DNA from: Paraglaciecola hydrolytica
Lineage (GTDB): Bacteria > Pseudomonadota > Gammaproteobacteria > Enterobacterales > Alteromonadaceae
Reading direction: 5' to 3'
Assembly (NCBI RefSeq): GCF_001565895.1
Contig: NZ_LSNE01000009.1
Location: 96,670 to 157,026 of the forward strand
DNA: 60,357 nucleotides
Both the position numbers and the translations under genes were made by a program. This document shows positions 10,101 to 30,294 of the stretch, one piece after another. The notes below the pieces were generated by a model that ran no database searches, had not been told where the DNA came from, and worked only from the letters and a program-made list of their open reading frames with translations. Positions within the stretch are counted from its first letter, which is position 1, and every line of letters begins with the position of its first letter.

Positions 10101-10389
10101 AGTAGGTTCCTGAAAATAGTCCTGACAATATATAACAAAAATGCGTTTGCCACAGAGAAATCAAGTTGCTTTGATTTTTTTGTATAAATCACTGCTATAG
10201 GTAATTAAAAAGGTTTTTAATATTGTTTAAACGTGATTTTTGGTAAGTAATATACTGATATTGTCCTTAAAATGCCGGTTTTTATGACGCGTAAACTAGC
10301 TGGTTTTTCACGCGGTTTATCGCTATCTATACTGAACTTACAACGTGGTTTTGACTTGTTTAGTTCACTACTTCAATCGTGTCATTTTA

Positions 10390-13300
10390 ATGAGTTATTG
10401 CATGCCCTCAGCATCTCTTTTACCCCTTAGACAAATCATTCGCCAACATATATATATGCCTGAAGATCAGGCCATTGACAATCTATTACAGCTGAATCCG
10501 CTGACAGACGAAAATCGCCTAAAAGTCGAAAGTACAGCCTTAAACTTTGTTGAACAGTGTCGCAATAATCCAGATAAACAAGGTTTGTTTGACGCATTTT
10601 TACGTGAATACAGTTTATCGAGTCAAGAGGGTGTCGTTTTGATGACCTTGGCCGAAGCACTTTTGCGGGTGCCAGATAGCCATACCATCGACAAACTGAT
10701 TAAAGAAAAAATCCACCTTGGCCAGTGGGGCGAACATCTGGGAAATTCAGATGAATTGTTGGTTAATGCCGCCAGTAGGGGCTTAGTCCTCACCAGTAAA
10801 ATCCTTAACAAACAAGTCGACAAAACGGAAAGCCCAGAAAACTGGTTTCGTAAACTCATCAATCGAGTAGGCGAACCATTAGTGCGCAGCGCCACAGTAC
10901 AAGCCATGAAGTTTATGGGGCAACAATACGTATTAGGTCGCGATATTGAAGAGGCGGCTAAACGAGGTAGAAAAGGTAATCCGTCAGGTACCCGTTTTTC
11001 ATTCGATATGCTGGGTGAAGGCGCGCGCACTTATGCTGATGCTAAAAAATACTTTGAAGCTTATATGTTGGCCATTCACAGCATAGGTAAAAAAAACCAA
11101 CAAACATCTGTGGGATTGGCCGATGGAATTTCGGTCAAACTCAGTGCTTTGCATCCACGTTATGAATTCAGTCACCATCACTTGGTATTAGCAGAATTAG
11201 TGCCCAGCGTGATTGAGTTGGCTAAAGCCGCTAAACAATACAATATTGGTTTTACCATTGATGCCGAAGAAGCCGCACGTTTAGATATTGAACTCGATGT
11301 GTTTGAAGCATTGGCTTTTGCGCCACAATTGGCTGGCTGGGATGGATTGGGATTTGTATTACAGGCCTATCAAAAACGTGCAGTATTTGTAGTGGACTGG
11401 TTAGTGCAACTTGCGACCTTAAGCCAACATAAACTGATGGTGCGCTTGGTTAAAGGTGCATATTGGGATGCTGAAATCAAACACGCACAAGAGCAAGGTT
11501 TAGTGGATTTTCCGGTATTTAGCCGTAAGGTTCATACTGATTTAAGTTATCAAGTATGTGCAGGTAAATTACTCGCTAACCGCGTCGTACTTTATCCGCA
11601 ATTTGCTACTCATAATGCGTATACCGTGGCTTTGATTATGCAAATGGTCGAAGGCGAGCTCGATAGTTTTGAATTCCAACGTTTACATGGCATGGGCGAT
11701 TTATTATACAGCCAGATTATGCAGTTAAACGGACAAGCCTTACCTTTACGAGTGTATGCACCCGTGGGGGTACACCGTGATCTCTTACCCTATTTGGTAC
11801 GCAGATTACTTGAAAACGGTGCTAATGGCTCTTTTGTTAATCAGTTTTTAGATGGCAAAATCGCTGCGGCTAACCTCGCTAAAAGTGTTGAAGCAACTAT
11901 CGAGGGCATGAGTGGAAAACGTAATACTAAAATTCCTTTAGCCCATGATTTGTTTACTGCAGCCGGTGAACAACGCGCAAATTCAAGAGGTGTGGATCTT
12001 GATGATCCTTTAGCCGTGGCCGAAATTCAGCAAGAAATTACTCTAATCCAACAACACAAACCCAGTCATAGCTGGTCTGTGGGACCAATCATTAATGGGC
12101 AAATGCGCATTGATGAGCCGCAAGCCATCCTATCACCAGCGGATAAAAATTTGCTGGTGGGTTATTGCACTGATGCGCAGCCCCAAGATATTGAACAGGC
12201 TTTTACCTCAGCCGCACAGGCACAAATAAAATGGCAAGCCATAGGCGTCAATAAACGCGCGGATATACTGGATAAAGTCGCTGACTTATTAGAACAGCAA
12301 ACCGAGCAATTGACTGCCTTGATTAGCTTTGAAGCGGGCAGGACATTAGGTGACGGTGTATCTGAAGTGCGCGAAGCCGTGGATTTTTGCCGTTATTATG
12401 CACTACAAGCGCGCTTGCTTAATGCCAATCATGCTGATGCCACTGGGCTTTCTACTGCCAAAGGTATTTTTGTGTGTATTAGTCCGTGGAACTTCCCTCT
12501 GGCCATCTTTGTTGGTCAGGTGGTTGCGGCGCTGGTAACGGGTAATGCCGTATTGGCTAAACCTGCCGAACAAACCCCGATTATTGCCGCTTTGGCAGTA
12601 AAAATAATGCATCAGGCAGGTGTACCAGTCGAGGTATTACATCTTATTACTGGTACAGGTGTTAAGGTCGGTTCGATTTTAATGGCAAACCCATTAGTGG
12701 CGGGAGTGGCTTTCACTGGTTCAAGCGAAACCGCCCAGCGTATTCAAGTTAACTTGATACAACGTGGCTTGGATCATCCTGGTGTGACTATGCCTCCTTT
12801 TATCGCCGAAACCGGCGGGCAAAATGTGATGATAGTGGATTCTACCGCTTTGCCGGAGCAAGTGGTGGATACGGTGATCCAGTCGGCTTTTTTGAGCGCT
12901 GGCCAACGTTGTTCGTCTTTAAGAGTGCTGTATTTGCAGCAGGATATTGCCGATAATGTCATCGCCATGCTTAAAGGTGCGATTGCCACTTTAAAGGTTG
13001 GATTGCCTTGGGAACTGAGCAGTGATATCGGGCCGGTTATTGACCAAAAAGCCTTAACCAACCTCACTGCTCATTGTCAACGTATGCAACAACAAGCCAC
13101 GTTGTTAACTATGGGCAGTTTGTCGAAGGAATGTCAAAACGGTGTATTTATCGCGCCGCAGGTATTTGAAATCCAAAACATTGAGCAATTGAAACGTGAA
13201 GTATTTGGGCCAATTTTGCATGTCATTCGTTTTAAAGCCACTGAGCTGGATTTGATTTTAAAAGACATAAACGCGACAGGCTATGGCTTAACCTTGGGCA

Positions 13301-14211
13301 TTCATAGCCGCCTTAAACAGTTTGCCGACAAAGTATTTAGCGAAACTAAGGTGGGCAATACCTACATCAACCGCAACATGGTTGGCGCTGTCGTGGGTGT
13401 TAATCCCTTTGGTGGACAAGGTTTATCGGGTACAGGATTTAAAGCGGGTGGCCCCCATTATTTATTAAGGTTTACTGACTTGTGGGCAAGTATTGCCATT
13501 GAGGCTAAAACACTGGGGAATGAAAGCTTATCACCCTTAACCTTGGCTAGTTTAAACACGCTTAAAACTAATCAATCTACGTGGAATAAGGTTAAGCCTA
13601 TAAAACGAGTCAGCAGTTTAGCGGCCTGTTTAGAAAAATTGCAAACTCATGATGTGGCAGGCACGTTGGCGAGTGTGGCTGATATTTGTTTACAACGTAT
13701 TAGCCTGGTAAACAGTGAACAAATGCAGACTCAAGACTTACCCGGCCCGACGGGTGAAACTAACGAATTAAGTTTACATGGTCGTGGTGTGGTGCTGCTT
13801 GGTTTTAGTCAAATGATGCAAACAGATAACTGGATTCAGTTATTTAGTGCCCTAGCCGCGGGTAATAGCATTATGTTGATTGGTTATGACGAGCAGGCGC
13901 AGCATAGTGCTCGTGCAATCGCTGCGCAGTTGGCCTTAGTGACTAAAGGTGAGATACCCATGATAGTGGCAAGTGCTAATAGCCATGGAGAGTTAGCTAC
14001 GTTGTTACATCATCCTTTGATAGATGCTGTGGCAAGTGTGCAAGTAGAGGGGCTTATGCCTCATCTGGCACTGCGCAGTGGCGCGATTATTCCGCTGATT
14101 AATCATGTAACTGCTGCTTTTGCTTTGCTGCCTTATTCAGTGGAAAAAACCAGAACCGATAACATTGTTGCCACAGGCGGCAACGCAATGTTGTTGAATC
14201 TAAAAGAGTAG
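10390..14211 (+). CDS. putA: Bifunctional proline dehydrogenase / glutamate-semialdehyde dehydrogenase
   Basis: PutA oxidises proline to pyrroline-5-carboxylate with FAD and then to glutamate with NAD. The proline dehydrogenase barrel spans about residues 230-500 (DGISVKLSALHPRYE, RLVKGAYWDAEIK, HGMGDLLY). The aldehyde dehydrogenase spans about 590-1040, with ISPWNFPLAI, Glu807 (IAETGGQN) and catalytic Cys841 (SAGQRCSS). A C-terminal ALDH-like extension follows. With the ATG at 10390 it has 1273 residues. A GTG at 10345 or the ATG at 10402 is also possible, as no strong ribosome-binding site is seen. It lacks the N-terminal ribbon-helix-helix of E. coli PutA, so it cannot repress itself. The adjacent Lrp-type gene is the likely regulator. 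Confidence 0.96.
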   Translation: MSYCMPSASLLPLRQIIRQHIYMPEDQAIDNLLQLNPLTDENRLKVESTALNFVEQCRNNPDKQGLFDAFLREYSLSSQEGVVLMTLAEALLRVPDSHTIDKLIKEKIHLGQWGEHLGNSDELLVNAASRGLVLTSKILNKQVDKTESPENWFRKLINRVGEPLVRSATVQAMKFMGQQYVLGRDIEEAAKRGRKGNPSGTRFSFDMLGEGARTYADAKKYFEAYMLAIHSIGKKNQQTSVGLADGISVKLSALHPRYEFSHHHLVLAELVPSVIELAKAAKQYNIGFTIDAEEAARLDIELDVFEALAFAPQLAGWDGLGFVLQAYQKRAVFVVDWLVQLATLSQHKLMVRLVKGAYWDAEIKHAQEQGLVDFPVFSRKVHTDLSYQVCAGKLLANRVVLYPQFATHNAYTVALIMQMVEGELDSFEFQRLHGMGDLLYSQIMQLNGQALPLRVYAPVGVHRDLLPYLVRRLLENGANGSFVNQFLDGKIAAANLAKSVEATIEGMSGKRNTKIPLAHDLFTAAGEQRANSRGVDLDDPLAVAEIQQEITLIQQHKPSHSWSVGPIINGQMRIDEPQAILSPADKNLLVGYCTDAQPQDIEQAFTSAAQAQIKWQAIGVNKRADILDKVADLLEQQTEQLTALISFEAGRTLGDGVSEVREAVDFCRYYALQARLLNANHADATGLSTAKGIFVCISPWNFPLAIFVGQVVAALVTGNAVLAKPAEQTPIIAALAVKIMHQAGVPVEVLHLITGTGVKVGSILMANPLVAGVAFTGSSETAQRIQVNLIQRGLDHPGVTMPPFIAETGGQNVMIVDSTALPEQVVDTVIQSAFLSAGQRCSSLRVLYLQQDIADNVIAMLKGAIATLKVGLPWELSSDIGPVIDQKALTNLTAHCQRMQQQATLLTMGSLSKECQNGVFIAPQVFEIQNIEQLKREVFGPILHVIRFKATELDLILKDINATGYGLTLGIHSRLKQFADKVFSETKVGNTYINRNMVGAVVGVNPFGGQGLSGTGFKAGGPHYLLRFTDLWASIAIEAKTLGNESLSPLTLASLNTLKTNQSTWNKVKPIKRVSSLAACLEKLQTHDVAGTLASVADICLQRISLVNSEQMQTQDLPGPTGETNELSLHGRGVVLLGFSQMMQTDNWIQLFSALAAGNSIMLIGYDEQAQHSARAIAAQLALVTKGEIPMIVASANSHGELATLLHHPLIDAVASVQVEGLMPHLALRSGAIIPLINHVTAAFALLPYSVEKTRTDNIVATGGNAMLLNLKE

Positions 14212-14353
14212 ATATATTCCTACGTCGCTTGGAAAGACGGAAGCGCGTATTTTCAGGTGACTTGGATATATCTGATTTGCCATGGATGGCGAGTATGTTA
14301 AAAGGCTAATGTGGATTGGCATAAACAATGATGTTTCAACTAGTGAAAGAACA

Positions 14354-14839
14354 ATGAAAAAAAGCACTGAAGCCTTAGATCGAATTGATGTGAAAATTTT
14401 GCAAATTTTGCAGCAGGATTGCCGTATTTCAAACGTTGAACTGGCAAATAAAGTCAATTTAAGCCCAACCCCCTGCCTAGAACGGGTCAAACGTTTAGAA
14501 AAAAATGGTTATATCGATAAATACGTCGCCCATCTCAATCCTAAAAAACTCAATGTCAACCTGAGTGCCTATATTCAAGTGTCATTAACCAATACCAGTA
14601 CTAAAGATTTGGAAGAGTTTAATCGCCAAGTTCGCGCTTTAAATGAAGTGGTGGAATGTTCGATGGTGGCTGGTGGTTTTGATTATTTGATAAAAATTCG
14701 CCTGCAAGACATGGCCGAATACCGCGATTTTTTAGGTGATAAATTAGCCGCCATTAAAGGTATCAGCCAAACCCATACCTATGTGGTGATGGAAGAGGTT
14801 AAATCTACCCATTTGGTTAAGTTACCGACATTATCATAA
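14354..14839 (+). CDS. Lrp/AsnC family regulator, probable proline-responsive regulator of putA
   Basis: A 161-residue Lrp-type protein. The N-terminal helix-turn-helix reads LDRIDVKILQILQQDCRISN then LSPTPCLERVKRLEKNGYI, the Lrp motif. The ligand-binding RAM domain ends THTYVVMEEVK, close to E. coli Lrp. The start at 14354 follows GTGAAAGAACA and gives normal family length; an upstream in-frame ATG at 14282 would add 24 unlike residues. It lies 142 bases downstream of putA on the same strand. In bacteria whose PutA lacks a DNA-binding domain, an Lrp-type PutR often controls putA. Global Lrp itself is the alternative; the divergent tail argues for a specific role. Confidence 0.88.
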   Translation: MKKSTEALDRIDVKILQILQQDCRISNVELANKVNLSPTPCLERVKRLEKNGYIDKYVAHLNPKKLNVNLSAYIQVSLTNTSTKDLEEFNRQVRALNEVVECSMVAGGFDYLIKIRLQDMAEYRDFLGDKLAAIKGISQTHTYVVMEEVKSTHLVKLPTLS

Positions 14840-14921
14840 GGGAATTATGAGTTAAGCCTTTTTAATCTCAATCCTAAGCTGCAAGCTGCTTTCATTTCAG
14901 GCACAATCAACGTCCAATTGA

Positions 14922-15755
<834 letters not shown>

Positions 15756-15874
15756 GTTTTTGCGGCTTAGGACTAAAAATCCTAATTAAACGCTTATTTA
15801 TGCATTTTTGTGAATTGATAATAGACCGCTTCAGGCTATTCGTGTATAGTGCTGCGAATTTGCCAAAAATTACA

Positions 15875-15891
15875 GAAGTTACTATAACTTC
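15875..15891. promoter_or_regulatory. Perfect 17-bp dyad, candidate operator
   Basis: GAAGTTA-CTA-TAACTTC is a perfect 7-bp inverted repeat with a 3-base centre, 166 bases before carA. Size and symmetry suit a dimeric regulator, but I cannot match it to a known one. Confidence 0.4.
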
Positions 15892-16000
15892 AACCAGTTA
15901 TGTCTTGCAAATTAAGTAAAATATTATGTAAATCAATTGTTTATATGATGTTTTGAAGTGGGCTTGGTAACTGTGAATATCAAGCGCCAGAGCATTAATT

Positions 16001-16030
16001 TAAGGTTAATGCTTACATAACCTTACTTTT
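16001..16030 (+). terminator. Leader hairpin with T-run before carA, possible attenuator
   Basis: TAAGGTTA (16001-16008) and TAACCTTA (16018-16025) form a perfect 8-bp stem with a 9-base loop. It is followed by CTTTTTATTATT and ends about 16 bases before the carA Shine-Dalgarno. The shape is that of a weak intrinsic terminator in a leader. It is AT-rich, so it may be inefficient. Confidence 0.4.
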
Positions 16031-16056
16031 TATTATTAAGTAACCAGGAGGTTGAC

Positions 16057-17208
16057 TTGGCTAATTCCGCCCTTTTAGTACTAGCAGACGGGTCTGTGTT
16101 TAAAGGTACTGCGATTGGAGCGTCTGGTGTGTCGGTAGGGGAAGTGGTTTTTAACACTTCCATGACAGGATATCAGGAAATTTTAACTGATCCTTCGTAC
16201 GCTGAACAAATCGTTACTCTGACTTATCCTCATATCGGTAATACCGGTATCAATGAAGAAGACCAAGAATCCACCAAGATTTGGGCTAAAGGCCTAGTTA
16301 TTCGTGATTTACCCTTACTGGTCAGTAATTACCGTAGTCAACAAAGTTTGTCTGACTATCTTGAAGCCAATAACATCCTTGGCATAGCCGATATCGATAC
16401 CCGTCGCCTGACTCGTATATTACGAGACAAAGGTGCACAAAATGGTTGTATCATTGCTAGCCATGCTCTTGATGAAGTTAGCTTAGACGAAGTCCATGCT
16501 TTAGCGATGGCGCAAGGTTTTGCCGGTTTAAAAGGCATGGATTTAGCTAAAGAAGTCACTTGCGACACAGCCTATAACTGGAACAGTGCCAGTTGGGACT
16601 TGGAAGTGGGTTATAAACCTGCTCCTACTGAGCAACCCTATCATGTGGTAGCTTACGACTATGGTGTTAAACACAATATCTTACGTATGTTGGTTGACCG
16701 TGGTTGCCGCTTGACAGTAGTGCCAGCTAAAACCAGCGCCCAAGAAGTCTTAGCCCTTAAGCCTGATGGTGTGTTTTTATCCAATGGCCCTGGCGACCCA
16801 GAACCTTGTGATTATGCCATTAGCGCAATAAAAACCTTGTTAGATACTAATATTCCTATTTTTGGTATTTGTTTGGGCCATCAATTGTTAGCTCTTGCTA
16901 GTGGTGCCAAGACTTTAAAAATGAAATTTGGTCATCATGGTGCTAACCACCCAGTTAAAGATTTAAAAGCCAATCGTGTGATGATTACCGCGCAAAACCA
17001 TGGTTTTGCGGTAGATGAAGCAAGTTTGCCTGCTAATCTTGAAGTTACCCACATTTCGCTGTTTGATAAATCCTTACAAGGCATTCATCGCACTGATAAA
17101 CCAGCTTTTAGTTTCCAAGGACATCCGGAAGCGAGTCCTGGGCCGCACGATGCAGCGCCATTGTTTGACCATTTTATCGAATTGATGCAGGCAGCTCACT
17201 CTGCATAA
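16057..17208 (+). CDS. carA: Carbamoyl-phosphate synthase small subunit (glutaminase)
   Basis: CarA hydrolyses glutamine and passes ammonia to CarB for carbamoyl phosphate, the precursor of arginine and pyrimidines. The N-terminal domain ([18 protein letters not shown]) is followed by a class I glutamine amidotransferase domain. The nucleophile is Cys272 (FGICLGHQ) and the His-Glu pair lies in [11 protein letters not shown]. Length is 383 residues. The start is TTG at 16057, supported by AGGAGG at 16046-16051 five bases upstream and by alignment with family N-termini; E. coli carA also starts with TTG. carB follows after 56 bases. Confidence 0.97.
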
Positions 17209-17264
17209 GAGTGAGCCAGTACTGCCAGTAACTTGAATTTAGAGATAGAGTAAAGAAGACCGCC

Positions 17265-20200
17265 ATGCCAAAACGTACCGACATAAAAAGCATCCTGATC
17301 TTAGGCGCTGGGCCCATCGTTATAGGTCAAGCCTGTGAGTTTGACTATTCAGGCGCACAAGCCTGTAAAGCCCTTAGAGAAGAGGGGATCCGCGTCATCC
17401 TAGTAAACTCTAATCCAGCGACTATCATGACCGATCCAGACATGGCCGATGCGACTTATATCGAACCAATCCATTGGGAAGTGGTTAAAAAGATCATCGA
17501 GAAAGAACGTCCCGATGCGATTTTGCCGACCATGGGTGGGCAAACCGCGCTTAACTGTGCGCTGGATTTGAACAAGCATGGTGTGTTGGAAGAGTTTGGT
17601 GTGGAAATGATTGGTGCCACGGCCGATGCTATTGATAAAGCGGAAGACAGAGAACGTTTCGACAAAGCCATGAAATCTATCGGTTTAGCTTGTCCGGTGG
17701 CTGAAATTGCTCACTCTATGGAACAAGCTTTTGATGTCAGTACCCGTATTGGTTTCCCTTGTATTATCCGTCCTTCATTTACCATGGGCGGCTCTGGCGG
17801 CGGTATTGCTTATAACCGTGATGAGTTTGAAGAAATTTGTCGTCGTGGCTTAGATTTATCTCCTACCAACGAATTGCTAATCGATGAATCGTTAATTGGT
17901 TGGAAAGAGTACGAAATGGAAGTGGTACGTGATAAGGCAGATAACTGTATTATCGTGTGTACCATCGAAAACTTCGATCCAATGGGCGTGCATACAGGTG
18001 ACTCGATTACCGTAGCACCAGCACAAACCCTGACTGACAAAGAATTCCAGATCATGCGTAACGCTGCGATTGCGGTATTACGTGAAATCGGCGTGGAAAC
18101 GGGTGGTTCAAACGTACAGTTTGGGGTTGATCCTAAGACTGGCCGTTTAGTGGTTATCGAGATGAACCCAAGGGTATCGCGTTCATCTGCTCTTGCTTCT
18201 AAAGCAACAGGTTTCCCTATTGCTAAAGTGGCAGCCAAACTGGCCATTGGTTATACCCTAGATGAGTTAGCGAACGACATTACTGGCGGATTAACTCCAG
18301 CGTCTTTCGAACCTGCTATCGATTATGTCGTAACTAAGATCCCCCGTTTTAACTTTGAAAAATTTGCTGGTGCTAATGATCGTTTAACTACTCAAATGAA
18401 GTCAGTGGGTGAGGTAATGGCCATTGGTCGTAACCAACAAGAATCTTTACAAAAAGCCCTACGTGGTTTGGAAGTAGGGGTTAACGGCCTAGATTCCATT
18501 ATTGATATTAACGACCCTAACGCTAAAGCTATCATCGTTCGTGAATTACGCGAACCTGGTGCTGAGCGTATCTGGTACATCGCTGATGCTATGCGCATGG
18601 GTATGTCGGTGGATGAAATATTTACCTTAACCAATATCGATCGTTGGTATTTAATCCAAATCGAAGAGTTGGTCATCCTTGAGCAACAAATTACTGACGT
18701 GGGTTTGTCGGGCATTGATTACGAACTAATGCGTACCCTAAAACGTAAAGGTTTTGCCGATGCACGTATTGCTGATTTAACCGGTGTTGACGAGGCTGAC
18801 GTGCGTGAAGCCCGTCGTAACTTTGATATTCATCCAGTGTATAAACGGGTTGATACTTGTGCGGCAGAATTTTCTAGCAACACGGCTTATATGTATTCCA
18901 CTTACGATGAAGAGTGTGAATCTAACCCCACTGACAATAAAAAGATCATGGTATTAGGCGGTGGTCCAAACCGTATCGGTCAGGGCATAGAATTTGATTA
19001 TTGCTGTGTACACGCGGCTTTAGCTTTACGTGAAGACGGTTACGAAACCATTATGGTTAACTGTAACCCTGAAACCGTTTCTACCGATTATGACACTTCA
19101 GATCGCCTATATTTTGAATCAGTGACCTTAGAAGATGTATTAGAAATCGTACGTATCGAAAAACCAGTTGGCGTAATCGTGCAATATGGTGGTCAAACTC
19201 CACTTAAATTAGCGCGCGCATTAGAAGCCGCGGGTGTACCTATTATCGGTACTTCTCCTGATGCTATAGATAAAGCCGAAGATCGTGAACGTTTCCAAAA
19301 AATGGTTAACAAGCTTAATCTTAAACAACCGGCTAATGCCACGGTAAGCAACCTAGAGCAGGCGCTTGTTGCCGCTGAAAAAATCGGTTTCCCCTTGGTT
19401 GTGCGCCCGTCCTATGTGTTAGGTGGTCGTGCCATGGAAATCGTCTATGACATTAAAGATTTAACCCGTTACTTAAAAAATGCGGTAAAAGTATCTAATG
19501 ATGCCCCTGTATTGCTAGACCGTTTCCTTGACGATGCTATTGAAGTAGACGTTGATGCCATCTGTGACGGTAAAGAGGTAGTGATCGGCGGTATTATGGA
19601 GCATATTGAACAAGCGGGTGTGCACTCGGGTGATTCTGCCTGTTCTCTACCACCTTATTCTTTAAGTCCGGCCATTCAAGATGTAATGCGTGAGCAAGTT
19701 AAGGCGATGGCCCTGGAATTAGGTGTTATCGGTTTAATGAATACCCAGTTTGCCGTCAAAGATAATCAGGTTTACTTGATTGAAGTCAATCCACGTGCCG
19801 CTCGTACCGTACCTTTTGTGTCTAAAGCCACAGGTATGGCTCTAGCCAAAATTGGTGCTCGTTGTATGGTTGGCCAATCACTGGCGTCACAAGGTATTAC
19901 CAAAGAGATTATCCCGCCGTTTTATTCGGTTAAAGAAGTGGTACTGCCTTTTGCTAAGTTCCAAGGTGTTGATCCCTTGCTTGGGCCAGAAATGCGCTCA
20001 ACCGGCGAAGTGATGGGCGTGGGTGATACCTTTGTTGAAGCCTATGCCAAAGCTAACTTGGGCGCGAGCCAACCCATTCCCGTGGGCGGTAAAGCCTTAA
20101 TGTCAGTGCGCTTGAACGACAAAAATCGCGTGATTGAACTGGGCCAAAAAATGTTAGCCAAAGGTTTTACCTTAGAAGCAACTAGCGGCACGGCTGATGT

Positions 20201-20486
20201 ATTAAATAAAGCCGGTGTGACTTGTAGCGTAGTAAACAAGTTAAGCGAAGGTCGTCCGAATATCGTTGATGCCATCAAAAACCGTGAATATTGTTACATC
20301 ATCAATACCACTGAGGGGCGCCAAGCCATTGATGACTCAGTGTATATTCGTCGTGAAGCCTTACTCAATAAAGTACCGTATACCACTACGATGAATGCGG
20401 CGTTTGCTACGGTTAATGCCAATAAAGCAGAAGATCGTGCGCGTGTAACATCAGTCCAAGAGTTGCACAAACGTATAAACGCTTAA
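17265..20486 (+). CDS. carB: Carbamoyl-phosphate synthase large subunit
   Basis: CarB makes carbamoyl phosphate from bicarbonate, two ATP and ammonia delivered by CarA. It contains two homologous halves, each with an ATP-grasp domain: [20 protein letters not shown] at the start of the first and [20 protein letters not shown] near residue 560 for the second. A C-terminal allosteric MGS-like domain lies at about 940-1073 ([13 protein letters not shown]). Length, 1073 residues, equals the E. coli protein. It forms an operon with carA. Confidence 0.98.
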
Positions 20487-20491
20487 TCTGA

Positions 20492-20522
20492 GTGCTGGCC
20501 AGAACTCATTTCTGGTCAGCGC
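20492..20522 (+). terminator. Strong stem-loop after carB
   Basis: GCTGGCCAGAA (20494-20504) pairs with TTCTGGTCAGC (20510-20520) with one G-U pair and a 5-base loop, extendable by neighbouring bases. It starts only a few bases after the carB stop. No T-run follows, so it may protect the 3' end or give rho-linked termination before greA. Confidence 0.5.
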
Positions 20523-20600
20523 TTGAAAATTGTAAATTAGCACCTATGTTTGACTGCTAAGCAATATACCTGATTATCCAACAAAGTGAGTTGTTGAACT

Positions 20601-21077
20601 ATGAATCAATACCCAATGACAGCCAAAGGCGCAGAATTGCTGCGTGAAGAGCTGCAACATTTAAAGTCAGTCAAAAGACCGCAAATTATTAAATCTATTG
20701 CCGAAGCGCGTGAGCATGGTGATTTAAAAGAAAATGCCGAATACCACGCTGCCCGTGAGCAACAAAGTTTTTGCGAAGGCCGTATTCAGGATATCGAAGG
20801 TAAATTATCGAATATTCAAATTATCGATGTCACCAAAATGGCCAATAATGGCAAAGTGATTTTTGGGGCTACCGTTACGATAGTTAATCTAAGTAACGAT
20901 GAAGAGATCACCTATAAAATAGTGGGTGAAGATGAAGCCGATATTAAAAATAACTTAATTTCTTATGGCTCTCCCATTGCCCGTGGTTTGATTGGTAAGT
21001 CGCTAGACGATATCGTCAATATTCAAACACCTAAAGGCAGTATTGAGTTCGAAATCTCTGCAGTAGAATATATTTAA
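20601..21077 (+). CDS. greA: Transcription elongation factor GreA
   Basis: GreA rescues backtracked RNA polymerase by stimulating transcript cleavage. The N-terminal coiled coil ([20 protein letters not shown]) carries the conserved tip [17 protein letters not shown] near residues 39-55, with the acidic pair (D, E) that reaches the catalytic centre. The C-terminal FKBP-like domain ends [12 protein letters not shown]. Length is 158 residues, as in E. coli. It follows carB after 114 bases and ends before a strong terminator. Confidence 0.98.
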
Positions 21078-21310: not shown

Positions 21311-23194
21311 TTAGATCCTGCAATATTGTGGTTTATAAGCCGTTTCCTTTGTCATTTCTATAACGTTGCCACAAGAGCCATTTTGACAGGCTTGATAAGC
21401 AATTCTATCAGCGCTATTAACAACATAGATTGGATCGTCAACCGTCTTAATAAAAGTCGCGTTGCTTGCTGTTATTTCACCTTCCCCTTTGTATGAATAA
21501 ATATTGTATTCAATACCGACAATCTGTGTGCCGATTGATCCAAACTCGGCTTGATACAAATTACAAACAGGAATTAATTTATCCATTTCCTCAAGGTATC
21601 GAGTATCAGTGTTGTTTTCGTAAACGTGCGCTACTTGTGAAGCGTTAACTCTAAACAAGTTGTCTATGGCCATCAAACTGGCTAATGCGTCTACTGTGCC
21701 TTTACCGCAACCTAATATTTTACAATCGGAAGGCAAACCCTTTTTGTTTAATAAAATGTCGTATGAATTAGCCTCTAAAATTCTTTCAATCTGTAAAGGG
21801 GTTAATTCAGGGTATTTCATTTTTAAACCTGCTGCTATTGAAGCAACTAATGGTGTCGCAAATGATGTTCCATTCGTTGCTTTGTATTCACTTGAAAGTT
21901 GAGTTGGATCTTCATTTGGAACCGCAACAACAATACCTGTTCCTGCTGCAGTAATATCAACTGCGCTTCCATAGTTTGAAAAATCACTTTTATCTTCGGT
22001 ATGTGGGGCAACTGAACCGACTGTAATTGTGTTTTTACAATTGGCTGGACTAATGTTTTCCGCTTCCATTCTCTCATTACCTGCGGCTACAACAACCACT
22101 ATTCCTTGTTCTACCGCAAAATCAATAACCTCTTGATAAAACTCGCTACAACCTGCTGAATTACCACCACCTAAACTTACATTGATGATATCAACTTTTT
22201 GATCAATGTTAGGTATTCCCGCTACTTCTCCACCTGCTGCCCAAACAATACCGTCATAAATATCATTTTGACCACAACCTTTATAATGACAAACTTTGGC
22301 AAAAATTAATGATATATCGTCGCTGTTTAATGCGCCCGTCATGCCAAGCCCGTTATCAGTGTATGCGCCTATAACTGAGGCCACGGCTGTTCCATGTTCC
22401 ATCATTTTAAACTCGCCCGTATCGGGGTCTATGTTGCCATCTGTATGGTCTGCCACTCTATCAACCGTAACTGGTTCGCCTTGTAAATTAGGGACAAAAG
22501 AAACAAAACTATAACCACCATCAACAGGTAAATCTTCGTGGTTAGACGATCCACTATCAATAATGGCTATTCTTACTTTTCTACCTAGTTTGTTCTCAAT
22601 ATTTTGCTTAAACAATTCAAAGTTTGAGTTCGCTTTATTTTCATCAAAAGAACCAAAATAAGATTGACTGTTATACCAAGGATCATTGAAGAATGTCCCT
22701 GACCAGTTGGCAGATACGACACTGGTAGTTTCGGACTTTTTTACATTGAATGCCTCATTTACCTGTGCTTTTTTAACTTCTTGAAGCGCTTTAAACTCTT
22801 TCATAAAATCATTAACAGATTTTGTTGTTGTGATCTCAATTAAATCATTCCCTAATGACATTGTTCTTAAATGTCTTATTTTTGCGCCTAAATTATTTTC
22901 AAGTTTTTCAATTAAATTATAAGCGGCATCTTCATATATATTTTTTTCAATGTTGTATGCTTGCTCCATTAAGTTATCAAACTCGCCTTCATCCCCTGTG
23001 CTTTTATATTCAGGAATATTAATTAATATTTTATGGTGGTGAGGATTAGTGAACTTAACAATCACTTGGAAAACATTACTGTCATCCACTCTTTTCATTA
23101 AAACATTGCGTAAATCAAGTTCGCCATTGTCTTTTGCTGAAACGCTTAATGCTGTGATTAAAACGGTGATAAATACTATAAATAATTTTTTCAT
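21311..23194 (-). CDS. Subtilisin-like (S8) secreted serine protease
   Basis: With the ATG at 23194 this is a 627-residue exported protease. A signal peptide (residues 1-20, ending SVSA) precedes an inhibitor-like propeptide up to about residue 160. The catalytic domain has Asp213 (IAIIDSGSS), His267 (MEHGTAVAS), oxyanion Asn373 (VAAGNER) and Ser444 (NGTSFATPLV), a complete triad. About 120 further residues with cysteine pairs follow and are unassigned. An upstream in-frame start would add 12 residues before the signal peptide. It lies 25 bases after the lipoprotein gene, so the two are one operon. The DNA is visibly AT-richer than the core genes around it. The substrate may be the neighbouring lipoprotein, but this is only a suggestion. 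Confidence 0.92.
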   Translation of the reverse strand: MKKLFIVFITVLITALSVSAKDNGELDLRNVLMKRVDDSNVFQVIVKFTNPHHHKILINIPEYKSTGDEGEFDNLMEQAYNIEKNIYEDAAYNLIEKLENNLGAKIRHLRTMSLGNDLIEITTTKSVNDFMKEFKALQEVKKAQVNEAFNVKKSETTSVVSANWSGTFFNDPWYNSQSYFGSFDENKANSNFELFKQNIENKLGRKVRIAIIDSGSSNHEDLPVDGGYSFVSFVPNLQGEPVTVDRVADHTDGNIDPDTGEFKMMEHGTAVASVIGAYTDNGLGMTGALNSDDISLIFAKVCHYKGCGQNDIYDGIVWAAGGEVAGIPNIDQKVDIINVSLGGGNSAGCSEFYQEVIDFAVEQGIVVVVAAGNERMEAENISPANCKNTITVGSVAPHTEDKSDFSNYGSAVDITAAGTGIVVAVPNEDPTQLSSEYKATNGTSFATPLVASIAAGLKMKYPELTPLQIERILEANSYDILLNKKGLPSDCKILGCGKGTVDALASLMAIDNLFRVNASQVAHVYENNTDTRYLEEMDKLIPVCNLYQAEFGSIGTQIVGIEYNIYSYKGEGEITASNATFIKTVDDPIYVVNSADRIAYQACQNGSCGNVIEMTKETAYKPQYCRI

Positions 23195-23219
23195 TTTGAT
23201 ATCTCGCTTAATTTTTAAA

Positions 23220-25112
23220 TTAGTTAACAAAGTCAGTAGTGTTTGTTCTTTGTGATAACGCTCTTAATAACTTATATTTATCACTGTAAACCCACTTATT
23301 ACTTTTGTTATATTCACCATATTGGGCATTACCGATAAACCGTGAAAAGAATGTTTTATCTTCGTCTAACCATTCATAATCTTTACTAAACTCAACTGTA
23401 AATAATTTGTCATCAAGTGCGGCTAACTCATTAATAATTGGAACAATCGCTTCACCTGTATTGACCAAGTTTTCAAGGAATGAATTAAATAAGGAGTTAT
23501 ATGATCCAAGTAGTCCATCGTCTGTTTCAAATTCACCTGTATCAACTGATAATTGAATACCACCGATATATTGTAAAATGATTGAATAAGCGGCTCTGTT
23601 ATCACCATATAATTTATTTTCATACTGTTCTTTTTGTAATGAGTTAATCTTTCCGATATTAAATAAATAGTCAGTGTAGAAATAACCTAATAAATTATAT
23701 TCTCTGGTTTGATAATATGAATTTTCATATTTCAATTTCATTTTTAGGGCTTCACGATTAATTTCAGTATCAATATTCGCAATAACCATTATTTCTAAAT
23801 TAACTTGTATTAATATGCTGCCATCAAAGAATTGAGCCGCAAATCCGTATGTTTCGCCATAATCACCTACATCATTGGCGGTAATGGTGAATAAGCCGTT
23901 TTCATGTGATATTGATACTTCATCCATATCGCCATACCAGTATTCAATTTTTTCAAACTTAACGTTCTCTGGAAGATCGTCTTTAATGGTGTATGAAAGT
24001 GTTTTTGTTGAATTTTTACCTATCTTGAAAAAAGGTCTATCAAACTCACCAAGTATGATTTGTGCTTCTTCTGTGTTTTGTTCTAAAAAATTCATACTTA
24101 CAGTGGTCGGTTGGCTGTTGTTTTTTCCGTCATTAACCAAGAAGGAAAATATGGCAATACCGTCTTTACCTACAAAACCTGTTTTGACTTTTAACCATCT
24201 ATTTTTACAATCAAATTGATAAGTGAAAGTATCAGGAAGGTTAAAGGTGTCTTGTATATCAAAACGACAATCAAAATTGGTATCTCCATCCTCGTCAGTA
24301 ATGGTAAAGGTGTAGAAATACTCTTCGTCCGATGACATAGAGATAAGTAAACCCTTTCCATCTTTATCTTCGTTAAACCTCACTTTTGGGGCATAGTCAT
24401 TTTTTGGTGTTGTATCTTCAATAACATTCACCGTAAAACTAAATGCTTCGCTTCTATTGCCGTGAATATCGGCTACTGACCACTTAACTGTTTTAAGTCC
24501 TACGGTATCGCCCCTAACGTCAAACCATCCGTCAAATGGTTCCACATATAAGCCTTCGTCGGCTTGAAATTGTAAAGAACTCACATCAATCTGATCTCCG
24601 TCTGGATCAAGAACTGTGTAGCCAATAAAACCTATTTTTTCACCGACCTTCACTTCCAAAGGCGTAGAATCCATAGTAATAACAGGTGCGCCATTAATGA
24701 CCTGAATAATGTTCTTAACCGTTAAGGACAAGGTTTTTGTTGTGCTGGCCTTACCATCACTTGCTACCACTTGAATTGTGGTATTTTGCGTTGCTTCTAC
24801 TTCGCTTGCGGTAAGAGTAAGCGTTGAACCATTAATACTTGTAGTAAGGTAATTGTGTGTCTCATTTACCGTAATATTGACGTTATCACCGTCTACATCT
24901 GAAAATTGTAAGGCCACTTCAACAGACGTGTTTTCGTCCATTGTGATAGTTGAAGGACTCATCGTTAAGGTTGGTGCCGTGTTAGTTGGTTGTGGCGTTG
25001 TGGGCGTTGTGGGCGTTGTGGGCTTTGTGGGTGTGCTGCTGCCTGAACCGCCACCTCCACATCCGCCTAAAAGTAATATCAATAAAATCGAGTGAAACAG
25101 CTGTTTGCCCAT
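23220..25112 (-). CDS. Lipoprotein with Ig/cadherin-like repeats
   Basis: A 630-residue lipoprotein. The signal peptide ends in the lipobox LLGGC with Cys18, followed by a Gly/Ser and Thr/Pro-rich linker (TPTTPTTPTTP) that would extend the rest away from the membrane. At least three Ig/cadherin-like beta modules follow. They show FSDVDGDNVNITV at about 70-83, LDPDGDQIDVSSL near 180 and ITDEDGDTNFDC near 275, the DxDGD pattern of calcium-binding repeats. The last 200 residues are helical and unlike any family I know (EINREALKMKLKYENSYYQT). It is co-transcribed with the S8 protease. A surface adhesion or protease-processed role is possible but unproven. Confidence 0.85.
   Translation of the reverse strand: MGKQLFHSILLILLLGGCGGGGSGSSTPTKPTTPTTPTTPQPTNTAPTLTMSPSTITMDENTSVEVALQFSDVDGDNVNITVNETHNYLTTSINGSTLTLTASEVEATQNTTIQVVASDGKASTTKTLSLTVKNIIQVINGAPVITMDSTPLEVKVGEKIGFIGYTVLDPDGDQIDVSSLQFQADEGLYVEPFDGWFDVRGDTVGLKTVKWSVADIHGNRSEAFSFTVNVIEDTTPKNDYAPKVRFNEDKDGKGLLISMSSDEEYFYTFTITDEDGDTNFDCRFDIQDTFNLPDTFTYQFDCKNRWLKVKTGFVGKDGIAIFSFLVNDGKNNSQPTTVSMNFLEQNTEEAQIILGEFDRPFFKIGKNSTKTLSYTIKDDLPENVKFEKIEYWYGDMDEVSISHENGLFTITANDVGDYGETYGFAAQFFDGSILIQVNLEIMVIANIDTEINREALKMKLKYENSYYQTREYNLLGYFYTDYLFNIGKINSLQKEQYENKLYGDNRAAYSIILQYIGGIQLSVDTGEFETDDGLLGSYNSLFNSFLENLVNTGEAIVPIINELAALDDKLFTVEFSKDYEWLDEDKTFFSRFIGNAQYGEYNKSNKWVYSDKYKLLRALSQRTNTTDFVN
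24994..25029 (-). repeat. Tandem repeat of a 9-bp unit coding a Thr/Pro linker
   Basis: Four consecutive copies of GGCGTTGTG on the plus strand, the last with one mismatch. They encode the TPT-TPT linker after the lipobox. Being a multiple of three, copy-number change would alter linker length without a frameshift. Confidence 0.85.
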
Positions 25113-25289
25113 ACATACATCCTCTTTTTAAGTGCATGTCGAGCATCTACAAAATCAACTTACTAAAAAAGCTACGCAGCTTTCATCCATTACCGTAAAT
25201 AAAAATTAAAAAAATATTTTGCCGAGCCATTATGGTTTATAGCAAAAATTACGTATCTATTTTATTAGGAGGATCTTTTGCCAAGATGT

Positions 25290-25319: not shown

Positions 25320-26198
25320 ATGGATGAAAATGCAGTCAATCAACTCATCAACGAAGAAATGAAACAAATTGCTGTAGCTAAGGCGATTAAAAAGAAATTA
25401 TTCAACGATATACATGTTTTACAAAAAAGCGATATTTTCTCTAAGTATTACAATAGTAAAGGGAAAGGAAAAAAGGAAAACATGCAAATTGAATGGAAGC
25501 ATTTTATCGTCGAAGAACATGAAAAAGATAAAACCAGTCGCACCATTGTTAACCAACGAAAAGGTACCACACGTAATGGTAATAGTTATGTTAAAGACGT
25601 TAATGTAAAAACGATTGTAACTCAGTATGACTATATCAAAGTAAAAAATGACAAAAACGAGGTGTTTAACTATCGACTGGTCGATTTAAACATGGCTAAG
25701 TTATCGGTGGGGCAAATTGTCAGTTTAGGTTGGATCTATCATAAGCAAGGCGAAAATCAGCCAGACTCGGTGATTGAACAGGGTGCCAGCTTTGGTCAAA
25801 TGTGGCAAGACGACGTTCAGCCAATGGTCTGTGTGCATCATAGTGATGGCGAAAAATCCCATGAGTTGACCTATCAAGGCATGTCTGCAAGAGATCTATT
25901 TGATCATGTTCACAGCAATTCAATCGGCCTTTGGCATTTGTTGTGGATATTGCCAATTATCTTAATGTTTAATATTAACTGGAAAAACGACAATGAGGCA
26001 CTCATGGTTTTGTGGTTAGTAGGTGGGGGCATTGTTAGCGCAATAACAATGGCAATTAAACGCCATCGCAACGGAGATAAAATGTTTAAAACCTTTTTAG
26101 CTTGGTACGATACTTCGGCTAAACATGCCTTTAAAGTCGGCTCTGAGGCACTATTGATTTTACAAGAACAATTCAGTTCATCTAGGGTAAAAGGATAA
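25320..26198 (+). CDS. Unknown membrane protein with two C-terminal spans
   Basis: I do not recognise this 292-residue protein. The first 60 residues are charged and helical (MKQIAVAKAIKKKLF, SKGKGKKENMQIEW). A beta-rich middle section (VDLNMAKLSVGQIVSLGWIY) resembles small OB- or SH3-like folds only loosely. Two adjacent membrane segments occur near residues 200-216 (LWHLLWILPIILMF) and 223-242 (LMVLWLVGGGIVSAITM), with a cytosolic tail. It lies divergent to the lipoprotein-protease pair and its 3' end overlaps the kinase gene 3' end by 21 bases. Position alone suggests a link to the sigma/kinase block. Its start may be controlled by a hairpin over the ribosome-binding site. Confidence 0.75.
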   Translation: MDENAVNQLINEEMKQIAVAKAIKKKLFNDIHVLQKSDIFSKYYNSKGKGKKENMQIEWKHFIVEEHEKDKTSRTIVNQRKGTTRNGNSYVKDVNVKTIVTQYDYIKVKNDKNEVFNYRLVDLNMAKLSVGQIVSLGWIYHKQGENQPDSVIEQGASFGQMWQDDVQPMVCVHHSDGEKSHELTYQGMSARDLFDHVHSNSIGLWHLLWILPIILMFNINWKNDNEALMVLWLVGGGIVSAITMAIKRHRNGDKMFKTFLAWYDTSAKHAFKVGSEALLILQEQFSSSRVKG

Positions 26199-29133: not shown

Positions 29134-29442
29134 TTAGAGACTTATGGCGCTTGAAATGGATATTTTTTTATAATCTAGCAAATCTAAGGCTTGTAGTTTG
29201 TAGGGCACATTTGCGTGATATATGCCTAAGATCACCACATTTGTATTGTTTGTAGTGGTAATTTTGAAATAAAAATCCTCGTTTGCCAGATTAAACTCAA
29301 GCTGCGTTTGTTGGGTTCCAGTTTTGAAAAAACAGCACTTTTTCTGCTCGCCAAATTGTATTGTGAATAGTTTTATCCAAGGTGATAATGATACTTTGAT
29401 GGGTATCATTGAGTATGAAGTTTTAAGGATCGTGATACTCAT
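29134..29442 (-). CDS. Small unknown protein translationally coupled to the sigma factor
   Basis: This 102-residue protein begins at an ATG that overlaps the sigma-factor stop (ATGA at 29442-29439), so the two are translationally coupled. The sequence is predicted to be mostly beta-strand (PIKVSLSPWIKLFTIQFGE, FYFKITTTNNTNVVILGIYH) and has two adjacent cysteines (KKCCFF). It has no signal peptide or membrane segment and no family that I recognise. It sits between the sigma factor and the kinase, 130 bases before the kinase start. A role in the phosphorylation circuit, as adaptor or anti-sigma-like partner, is an inference from position only. Confidence 0.7.
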   Translation of the reverse strand: MSITILKTSYSMIPIKVSLSPWIKLFTIQFGEQKKCCFFKTGTQQTQLEFNLANEDFYFKITTTNNTNVVILGIYHANVPYKLQALDLLDYKKISISSAISL

Positions 29443-30017
29443 GCCGATAGTTGTGTTTTTAACCAAGATTTAGCAAAAGCCATATCTTTTTCAGCACTGG
29501 ATACACTGATACCGACGATTTCAGAAATTTCTTTCACTAATAAACCACCAAAATATTTCAATTTAACGGTTTGTGCCTGCCTCGGAAATTCAACTTCTAA
29601 GCGCTCAATTGCTTCATTCAGTGCTAGAAATTCATCATCTGAGTCATCGATTATCTCATCGTTAAGCTCTTCAGAATATTCCATAGTGTGAGCGTTGCGT
29701 TTATTGGCTTGTGTTTTTCTTGCTTGGTCAACCAATACGTTGTGGATGGAGCGCGCCACCATAGTGAAAAACTCTTTACGATTGGCATAAAACTCATCAT
29801 TACCATTTTGTAACCTTATGTACAATTCGTGCACGAGTGAGGTAGTCGAGTTGACATGCTCTTGGATTGCCGCATCACCAAACTTTAACAACACACGTTT
29901 TCTATTTTCGGACGCAAGCTTTCTCAGATGATCGTAAATGACCAAATAAAAATGCTGTTCTGCCCCTTCTTTTTGCAACTGCCAATCAATAATCGCGCTG
30001 GTAATATCTACCGACAT
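29439..30017 (-). CDS. ECF sigma factor of the TIGR02999/ECF43 type
   Basis: A 192-residue sigma factor. Region 2 covers about residues 20-95 and region 4 about 130-190 (LKYFGGLLVKEISEIVGISV). The segment SLVHELYIRLQ then EFFTMVARSIHNVLVDQARK is typical of TIGR02999 factors. In region 2.2 the residues aligned with the acidic DAED motif are S57-T-T-S60, so all three acidic positions carry Ser or Thr. Such factors need phosphorylation by a linked Ser/Thr kinase to bind core polymerase, as shown for Vibrio parahaemolyticus EcfP. The ATG at 30017 is chosen because AGGAAG lies eight bases upstream and the protein then has family length; a start at 30155 would add 46 residues. Confidence 0.9.
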   Translation of the reverse strand: MSVDITSAIIDWQLQKEGAEQHFYLVIYDHLRKLASENRKRVLLKFGDAAIQEHVNSTTSLVHELYIRLQNGNDEFYANRKEFFTMVARSIHNVLVDQARKTQANKRNAHTMEYSEELNDEIIDDSDDEFLALNEAIERLEVEFPRQAQTVKLKYFGGLLVKEISEIVGISVSSAEKDMAFAKSWLKTQLSA

Positions 30018-30294
30018 AAAGTGCTTCCTGTGAAGAAAAATGATGTCGCGATAGTATTCTTTTGAAACAGAATTGCCAGCTACGTATTTATTTTTTATTC
30101 CCGCAATAATTATTTTAAAAAGCTCAACAGAGGGAGCTCTATACGCATGCATCACAATTTACGTTATGCTTTTTTGAAAGTTAGTTAATTATCCCACTAT
30201 ATTTGAATAAAATAATGACAAGTTTATTTCTGTTAAAGTGAAGCAATCAGAATTAACCAGACTACAACTTAAAATTTAATTAAAGGTACTTCGA

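Follow-up and report, generated by a model that had tools for sequence, protein, structure and literature searches.

The locus described here raises two questions: how a sigma factor with no charge at the acidic positions of region 2.2 is brought to bind RNA polymerase, and which genes it then serves. The locus lies in a 60,357-nt stretch of DNA (hereafter the window, meaning the whole stretch analyzed) from the marine-type bacterium Paraglaciecola hydrolytica (NZ_LSNE01000009.1, positions 96,670–157,026). Table 1 lists its features.

Table 1. Features of the sigma factor locus, in window coordinates
Feature	Coordinates	Strand	Details
ECF43/TIGR02999 sigma factor, 192 aa	29439..30017	-	ATG at 30017; STTS at 57–60; predicted phosphosite T59
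Small protein, 102 aa, modelled all-beta	29134..29442	-	ATG overlaps sigma TGA (ATGA)
Hanks-type Ser/Thr kinase, 941 aa	26178..29003	-	TTG start; Pkinase 123 bits, residues 88–336
Predicted target promoter, sigma operon	30078..30106	-	TTGCGG-N14-TACGTAGCT; 60 nt before sigma ATG; score 22.9
Predicted target promoter, lipoprotein-subtilase operon	25170..25198	-	TTACGG-N14-TGCGTAGCT; 57 nt before ATG; score 20.1
Predicted target promoter, 292-aa protein gene	25230..25258	+	TTATGG-N14-TACGTATCT; 61 nt before ATG; score 25.1
Predicted lipoprotein, 630 aa, predicted target	23220..25112	-	Big_9 domain; LLGGC lipobox by eye
S8 subtilase, predicted target	21311..23230	-	146 bits; D, H and S motifs by eye
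292-aa protein, predicted target	25320..26198	+	Hydrophobic stretches near C terminus by eye

An ECF43/EcfP-type sigma factor with an uncharged region 2.2 motif

An original prediction had placed an ECF sigma factor at this position and proposed that Ser and Thr replace the acidic residues of its region 2.2. Profile searches bore out the first point: the window sigma factor scored 152 bits against TIGR02999 over residues 3–191 (curated cut-off 126.15) and 104.4 bits against Pfam Sigma70_ECF, and it alone among the six TIGR02999 matches in its own genome exceeds the cut-off. A longer open reading frame starting from a GTG at 30155 was dropped because the predicted promoter of the sigma operon would fall within it. 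The second point was confirmed by alignment. The motif, NSTTSLVHELYIRL, contains S57, T58, T59 and S60, and in region 2.2 (N-S57-T58-T59-S60-LVHELYIRL) the STTS residues stand at the DAED positions of canonical ECF sigma factors. At the same columns, three of the five other TIGR02999-matched sigma factors of this genome read DVSD, AAQD and EAME; the fragments taken of the remaining two ended short of the motif. The counterpart of T59 in the Vibrio harveyi homologue, which reads STTA like the motif published for EcfP, is residue 63, the second Thr of STTA when numbered from a chosen Met. This number fits Thr63, which we take to be the phosphosite number of EcfP.

In a FastTree phylogeny of the aligned sigma factors, the window sigma factor falls within a clade of 57 sequences (support 0.999) that also holds homologues from Vibrio, Aliivibrio, Photobacterium, Colwellia and other alteromonads. 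Around it lies a nine-sequence subclade (support 0.997) that unites the window sigma factor with those of Alteromonas sp. KUL42 and a congeneric genome, of two Pseudoalteromonas, and of three genomes from two further genera. Because some genomes came by two routes (G1019:C10 is L073, and G116:C7 is L074), the nine sequences represent eight genomes, and the 57-sequence set likewise contains duplicates. The branch uniting the subclade directly with the vibrios is weak (0.143). A PDB search returned no solved structure related to the sigma clade at E ≤ 0.001.

Within the 57-sequence clade, part of which was retrieved by a peptide pattern containing TT, the T59 column is Thr in 57/57 sequences and the T58 column is Thr in 56 and Ser in one; the 26 clade sequences retrieved by other routes all carry Thr at the T59 position too. 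The S57 column is Ser, Asn or Thr in all 57, and the S60 column is Ala, Ser, Val or Thr in 56 and Asp in one. Genus and family searches brought in 37 TIGR02999 loci, of which six belong to the clade; their residue at the T59 position was Thr in 32, Ala in two, Gly in two and Ser in one. With Thr in 57/57 clade sequences at T59, the replacement of the acidic motif in the window sigma factor is not due to chance.

According to the accessible text of PMC8999054 and PMC8103513, ECF43 sigma factors lack DAED, and EcfP has STTA, with PknT phosphorylating the second Thr; the accessible text of PMC13147305 gives an ECF43 consensus of QTTA, with the Thr conserved in 88% of members. The TIGR02999 score, the grouping with vibrio EcfP-type sigma factors and the invariant T59 all place the window sigma factor in this family, in agreement with the original prediction. 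Its further claim of a previously undescribed member stands insofar as the window sigma factor is a new and divergent protein of the ECF43/EcfP type, a known kind; its motif is an already published hallmark of the group, and what we describe is therefore a new member and not a new phenomenon.

A linked Hanks-type kinase

The Ser/Thr kinase that had been predicted beside the sigma factor is encoded downstream, and its catalytic residues K119, D212, N217 and D230 are intact and invariant across the seven long kinases aligned; the linkage is not direct, however, as a 102-aa gene intervenes between the two genes. A kinase-like open reading frame is present at 74 of 79 named related loci, which were chosen by two peptide patterns (one with TT) and come from the best 80 of 494 relatives; in the five others the contig is short or ends close to the sigma gene. 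The window kinase has HSD in place of HRD, and the Arg of HRD is replaced in all 14 kinase sequences from 11 loci (by HSD, HTD, HAD or HGD), so that the kinases of the group look like non-RD kinases. For kinases of this type, the usual activation-loop route is perhaps not the means of activation.

Hydropathy revealed a hydrophobic segment at residues 362–380 of the window kinase; at the same threshold, the relatives L152 and L075 showed no hydrophobic segment. TPR matches C-terminal of the segment are weak, below the Pfam cut-off. Kinase genes are multiplied at two of the loci: in G094 (L176 813–9306), three full-length tandem kinase genes, 76–84% identical, follow one sigma gene, and Alteromonas sp. 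KUL42 (L178 9134–15047) has two kinase genes, the second broken into two frames.

A small gene between the sigma and kinase genes

The intervening 102-aa gene is conserved in the subclade and is new here. All eight genomes of this well-supported group carry it; among the 21 genomes of its own genus listed, the window genome alone has it. None of the six members tested gave a Pfam match over the cut-off. Homology to JAMM1, to which two PDB sequence matches pointed (best E 0.017), was not accepted, and Foldseek with the model of the small protein returned nothing at E ≤ 0.001. The N- and C-terminal domains of FAIM are 4% and 12% identical to the small protein, with a Foldseek E of 0.20 for 3mx7, and the PDB sequence search did not bring up FAIM; going by the model, a shared arrangement is the most that the two may have in common. 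Two weak genome matches were dropped as chance, one with four stops (G056) and one inside a 951-aa frame (G110); no sigma relative was present in the stretches fetched around them.

The position of this gene invites the alternative that the small, mostly basic protein is the main control, as an anti-sigma factor or chaperone, and that the kinase phosphorylates this protein or the sigma linker and not T59. Its start can overlap the sigma stop in 8/8 subclade genomes, its pI is at least 9.0 in 7/8 copies as against 5.3 for the window sigma factor, and all seven of its strong genome matches adjoin a relative of that sigma factor. Further, the linker of EcfK is also phosphorylated, according to the accessible text of PMC13147305. 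The window linker has a Thr, T111 (KRNAHTME), at a column that is Thr in 30/57 clade sequences and Ile, Leu or Thr in the nearest relatives, in a part of the alignment that aligns poorly and from which EcfK itself is absent. Yet T59 is invariant throughout the clade, including the vibrio and Colwellia loci, where a search of open reading frames of at least 80 aa gave no small-protein match and where the kinase-sigma pair evidently suffices; moreover, the small proteins are only 15–25% identical to the window copy. We therefore consider control chiefly by the small protein unlikely and prefer a switch at T59, in which the small protein would play a lesser part.

A promoter-like motif that follows the sigma clade

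The 300 bases upstream of the sigma gene in eight genomes and of the lipoprotein gene in four, read by eye, revealed the bipartite motif TTACGG-N14-TACGTRGCT. A weight matrix made from 16 sites of relatives, with the window sites left out, ranked the three predicted sites first in the 60-kb window (25.1, 22.9 and 20.1, followed by 8.6), and the best score in 20 Markov-shuffled windows was 14.7; the shape of the motif was first spotted with the window's own upstream regions included, and the holding out applies to the weights. When each genome was left out in turn (plus its genus-mate where a genus was shared), its listed sites still ranked first. Allowing up to two mismatches, a site precedes the sigma gene in 7/8 subclade genomes (G044 has none), the lipoprotein gene or its homologue in 5/5 genomes having one at the locus, and the 292-aa protein gene in 6/6 genomes having that gene. 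For the lipoprotein homologue of G094, a frame of 1091 aa in which no lipobox is evident, the site lies ~0.47 kb upstream.

In the window's own genome, the pattern TTRCGG-N13-15-NRCGTRGCT has two matches, both at the sigma locus (control, one). At two mismatches the reversed control outnumbers the real pattern (25 matches compared with 11), and weak sites elsewhere in the genome therefore cannot be judged. A large regulon was discarded on these counts, and the regulon of the window sigma factor is predicted to be local.

Other loci were listed by hand (34 in the clade and 42 outside it), and after two and one, respectively, of 5 kb or less were dropped, 32 and 41 remained. At least one site of 16 bits or more was present at 25 of the 32 other clade loci, two of which (L128 and L155) overlap on one contig; these 25 carry 29 sites, and seven loci have none. 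The 41 loci with non-clade TIGR02999 sigma factors (607 kb) had no such site. Because 36 of these are not alteromonads and come mostly from G+C-richer groups, a same-family control was added, comprising 20 further loci and the five alteromonad loci shared with the 41; none of these 25 non-clade loci (487 kb, GC 0.37–0.55) reached 16 bits, the best score being 13.4. The outside controls combined thus amount to 0/61 distinct loci. On inspection by eye, a predicted lipoprotein follows 26 of the 29 clade sites, and in 24 of those 26 cases its start resembles MKKVSLLAASVAIALTGCGG.

Whole genomes were searched as well. A strict vibrio form, whose pattern was derived from sites in the neighbourhood of vibrio sigma genes, had eight matches in 10 genomes (reversed control, none; three genomes without a match), seven of them on the contig of the sigma gene and within about 5.1 kb of it. 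The alteromonad form, in seven genomes, had 9 of its 12 matches at the sigma locus (control, one). On the clade and outside counts together with these whole-genome matches, the promoter-like motif follows the EcfP-type sigma clade. No site of 16 bits precedes the kinase-sigma operon in vibrios, and autoregulation is for that reason not general.

Some matches lie away from the sigma genes. The eighth vibrio match, on a contig other than that of the sigma gene, stands before a gene for a 114-aa lipoprotein (L215 7142–7616, G413), a possible distant target. G196 (L213 6215–8112) has two further motif copies far from its sigma gene; one precedes a 372-aa protein, and the other, with no long open reading frame after it, adjoins a gene resembling one beside a Pseudoalteromonas sigma gene (L153 9187–9603).

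Given that the motif was derived from sequence, it could instead be the site of another regulator, with the sigma locus merely co-regulated. We regard this as very unlikely: the motif is not palindromic, has a 14-base spacer, lies 57–61 nt upstream of three of the window's start codons, and tracks the sigma clade (25/32 loci, compared with 0/41 and 0/25 other TIGR02999 loci). The preferred reading remains that these are promoters of the sigma factor itself; conservation identifies the sites, and their use by the sigma factor is the probable explanation.

Predicted output genes and their surroundings

The subtilase frame overlaps the end of the lipoprotein frame and has a signal-peptide-like stretch after an internal Met. 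The 292-aa protein gave no Pfam or NCBIfam match over the cut-off. In the stretches fetched, the lipoprotein-subtilase pair occurs with the sigma gene in 5/5 genomes whose kinase is long (from about 940 aa) and in 0/3 whose kinase is short (510–578 aa). That the pair goes with long kinases only suggests that it may work together with the outer part of the kinase.

To the left of the module, at 10345–21077, the window looks housekeeping (PutA-, Lrp-, dapB-, carA-, carB- and greA-like genes), and the signalling module starts directly after the greA-like gene. The genes flanking the module differ between genera, which fits horizontal spread of the module. In a composition check for a genomic island, the GC content of 2-kb windows is 0.34–0.46 across the module, compared with 0.39–0.45 in the flanks.

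A proposed phosphorylation switch

We propose, with a probability of roughly three in four, that the locus forms a self-contained module for envelope signalling, of the ECF43/EcfP kind, with a switch operated by phosphorylation of Thr59 and with local promoters. The kinase would span the inner membrane and sense a signal through its C-terminal part in the periplasm. Once active, it would phosphorylate Thr59 in region 2.2. STTS carries no charge, and by analogy with EcfP the phosphate would supply the missing negative charge and so allow binding to core RNA polymerase. The holoenzyme would then fire the TTACGG-N14-TACGTRGCT promoters of its own operon, of the lipoprotein-subtilase operon and of the 292-aa protein gene; the first of these would provide positive feedback. 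The small beta protein most likely tunes the switch by binding to either the sigma factor or the kinase; this is the weakest step of the scheme.

The phospho-switch put forward in the original prediction, already published for the group, very probably applies to the window sigma factor, although dependence on T59 alone is not assured by analogy: in EcfK, T51 or the linker residue T106 suffices, T51A being functional in vivo and T51A/T106A not (accessible text of PMC13147305). It is highly improbable that the protein is an ordinary ECF sigma factor active without phosphorylation, with a kinase that acts elsewhere, for although EcfK T51A works and the Asp/Glu-rich linker of the window sigma factor may permanently charge the second polymerase contact, its three acidic region 2.2 positions are uncharged, the Thr is invariant in the clade, and a kinase is found at nearly all of the related loci examined among its best relatives.

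A broader version of the switch at Thr59 can be put forward only tentatively, at somewhat short of even odds. It would have three parts, in that the small all-beta protein would be translated together with the sigma factor and act as a dedicated sigma-kinase adaptor; in addition, the whole EcfP clade, vibrios included, would read TTACGG-N14-(T)ACGTR, with surface lipoproteins beside the sigma gene (and the subtilase in alteromonads) as its main conserved use.

Phosphorylation of sigma factors is a recently established route to switch on bacterial genes, and the switch here is itself of a known kind. New here are the small gene, a possible third component of the switch, and the predicted promoter motif with its predicted local regulon. 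A search of the open literature, with the original EcfP study beyond its reach, found no description of the motif or the small gene for the ECF43/EcfP group; among the papers listed, the EcfK paper and the two reviews alone concern the group, going by their titles. The accessible text of reviews on EcfP names neither a promoter sequence nor local target genes for the EcfP clade. If the motif is right, EcfP-type regulons become predictable in vibrios and alteromonads, and simple reporter assays could put the predictions to the test. Rather than a broad stress response, the switch appears to drive surface lipoproteins and a secreted protease whose genes lie beside the sigma gene.

Comparison with known systems

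Two ECF43 systems are close enough for comparison. EcfK/PknS of Xanthomonas citri resembles the window locus in that the sigma gene lies beside that of a transmembrane Hanks-type kinase and the region 2.2 Thr of EcfK is phosphorylated; unlike the window sigma factor with its STTS, EcfK keeps a Glu in its motif (QATE), is activated through linker T106 as well, and drives a type VI secretion system (all from the accessible text of PMC13147305).

The other system is EcfP/PknT of Vibrio parahaemolyticus; vibrio homologues share the clade of the window sigma factor. EcfP has STTA where the window has STTS, and its phosphorylated residue is the second Thr (accessible text of PMC8999054). Like the window, the vibrio loci have a kinase at the locus and the same promoter-like motif. 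Their kinases, however, are about 450 aa long and encoded upstream, with a secreted-protein gene between, whereas the window kinase of 941 aa is encoded downstream; they give no small-protein match, unlike the window; and in the vibrio loci compared, V. parahaemolyticus itself being outside them, the motif precedes lipoprotein genes and not the sigma operon.
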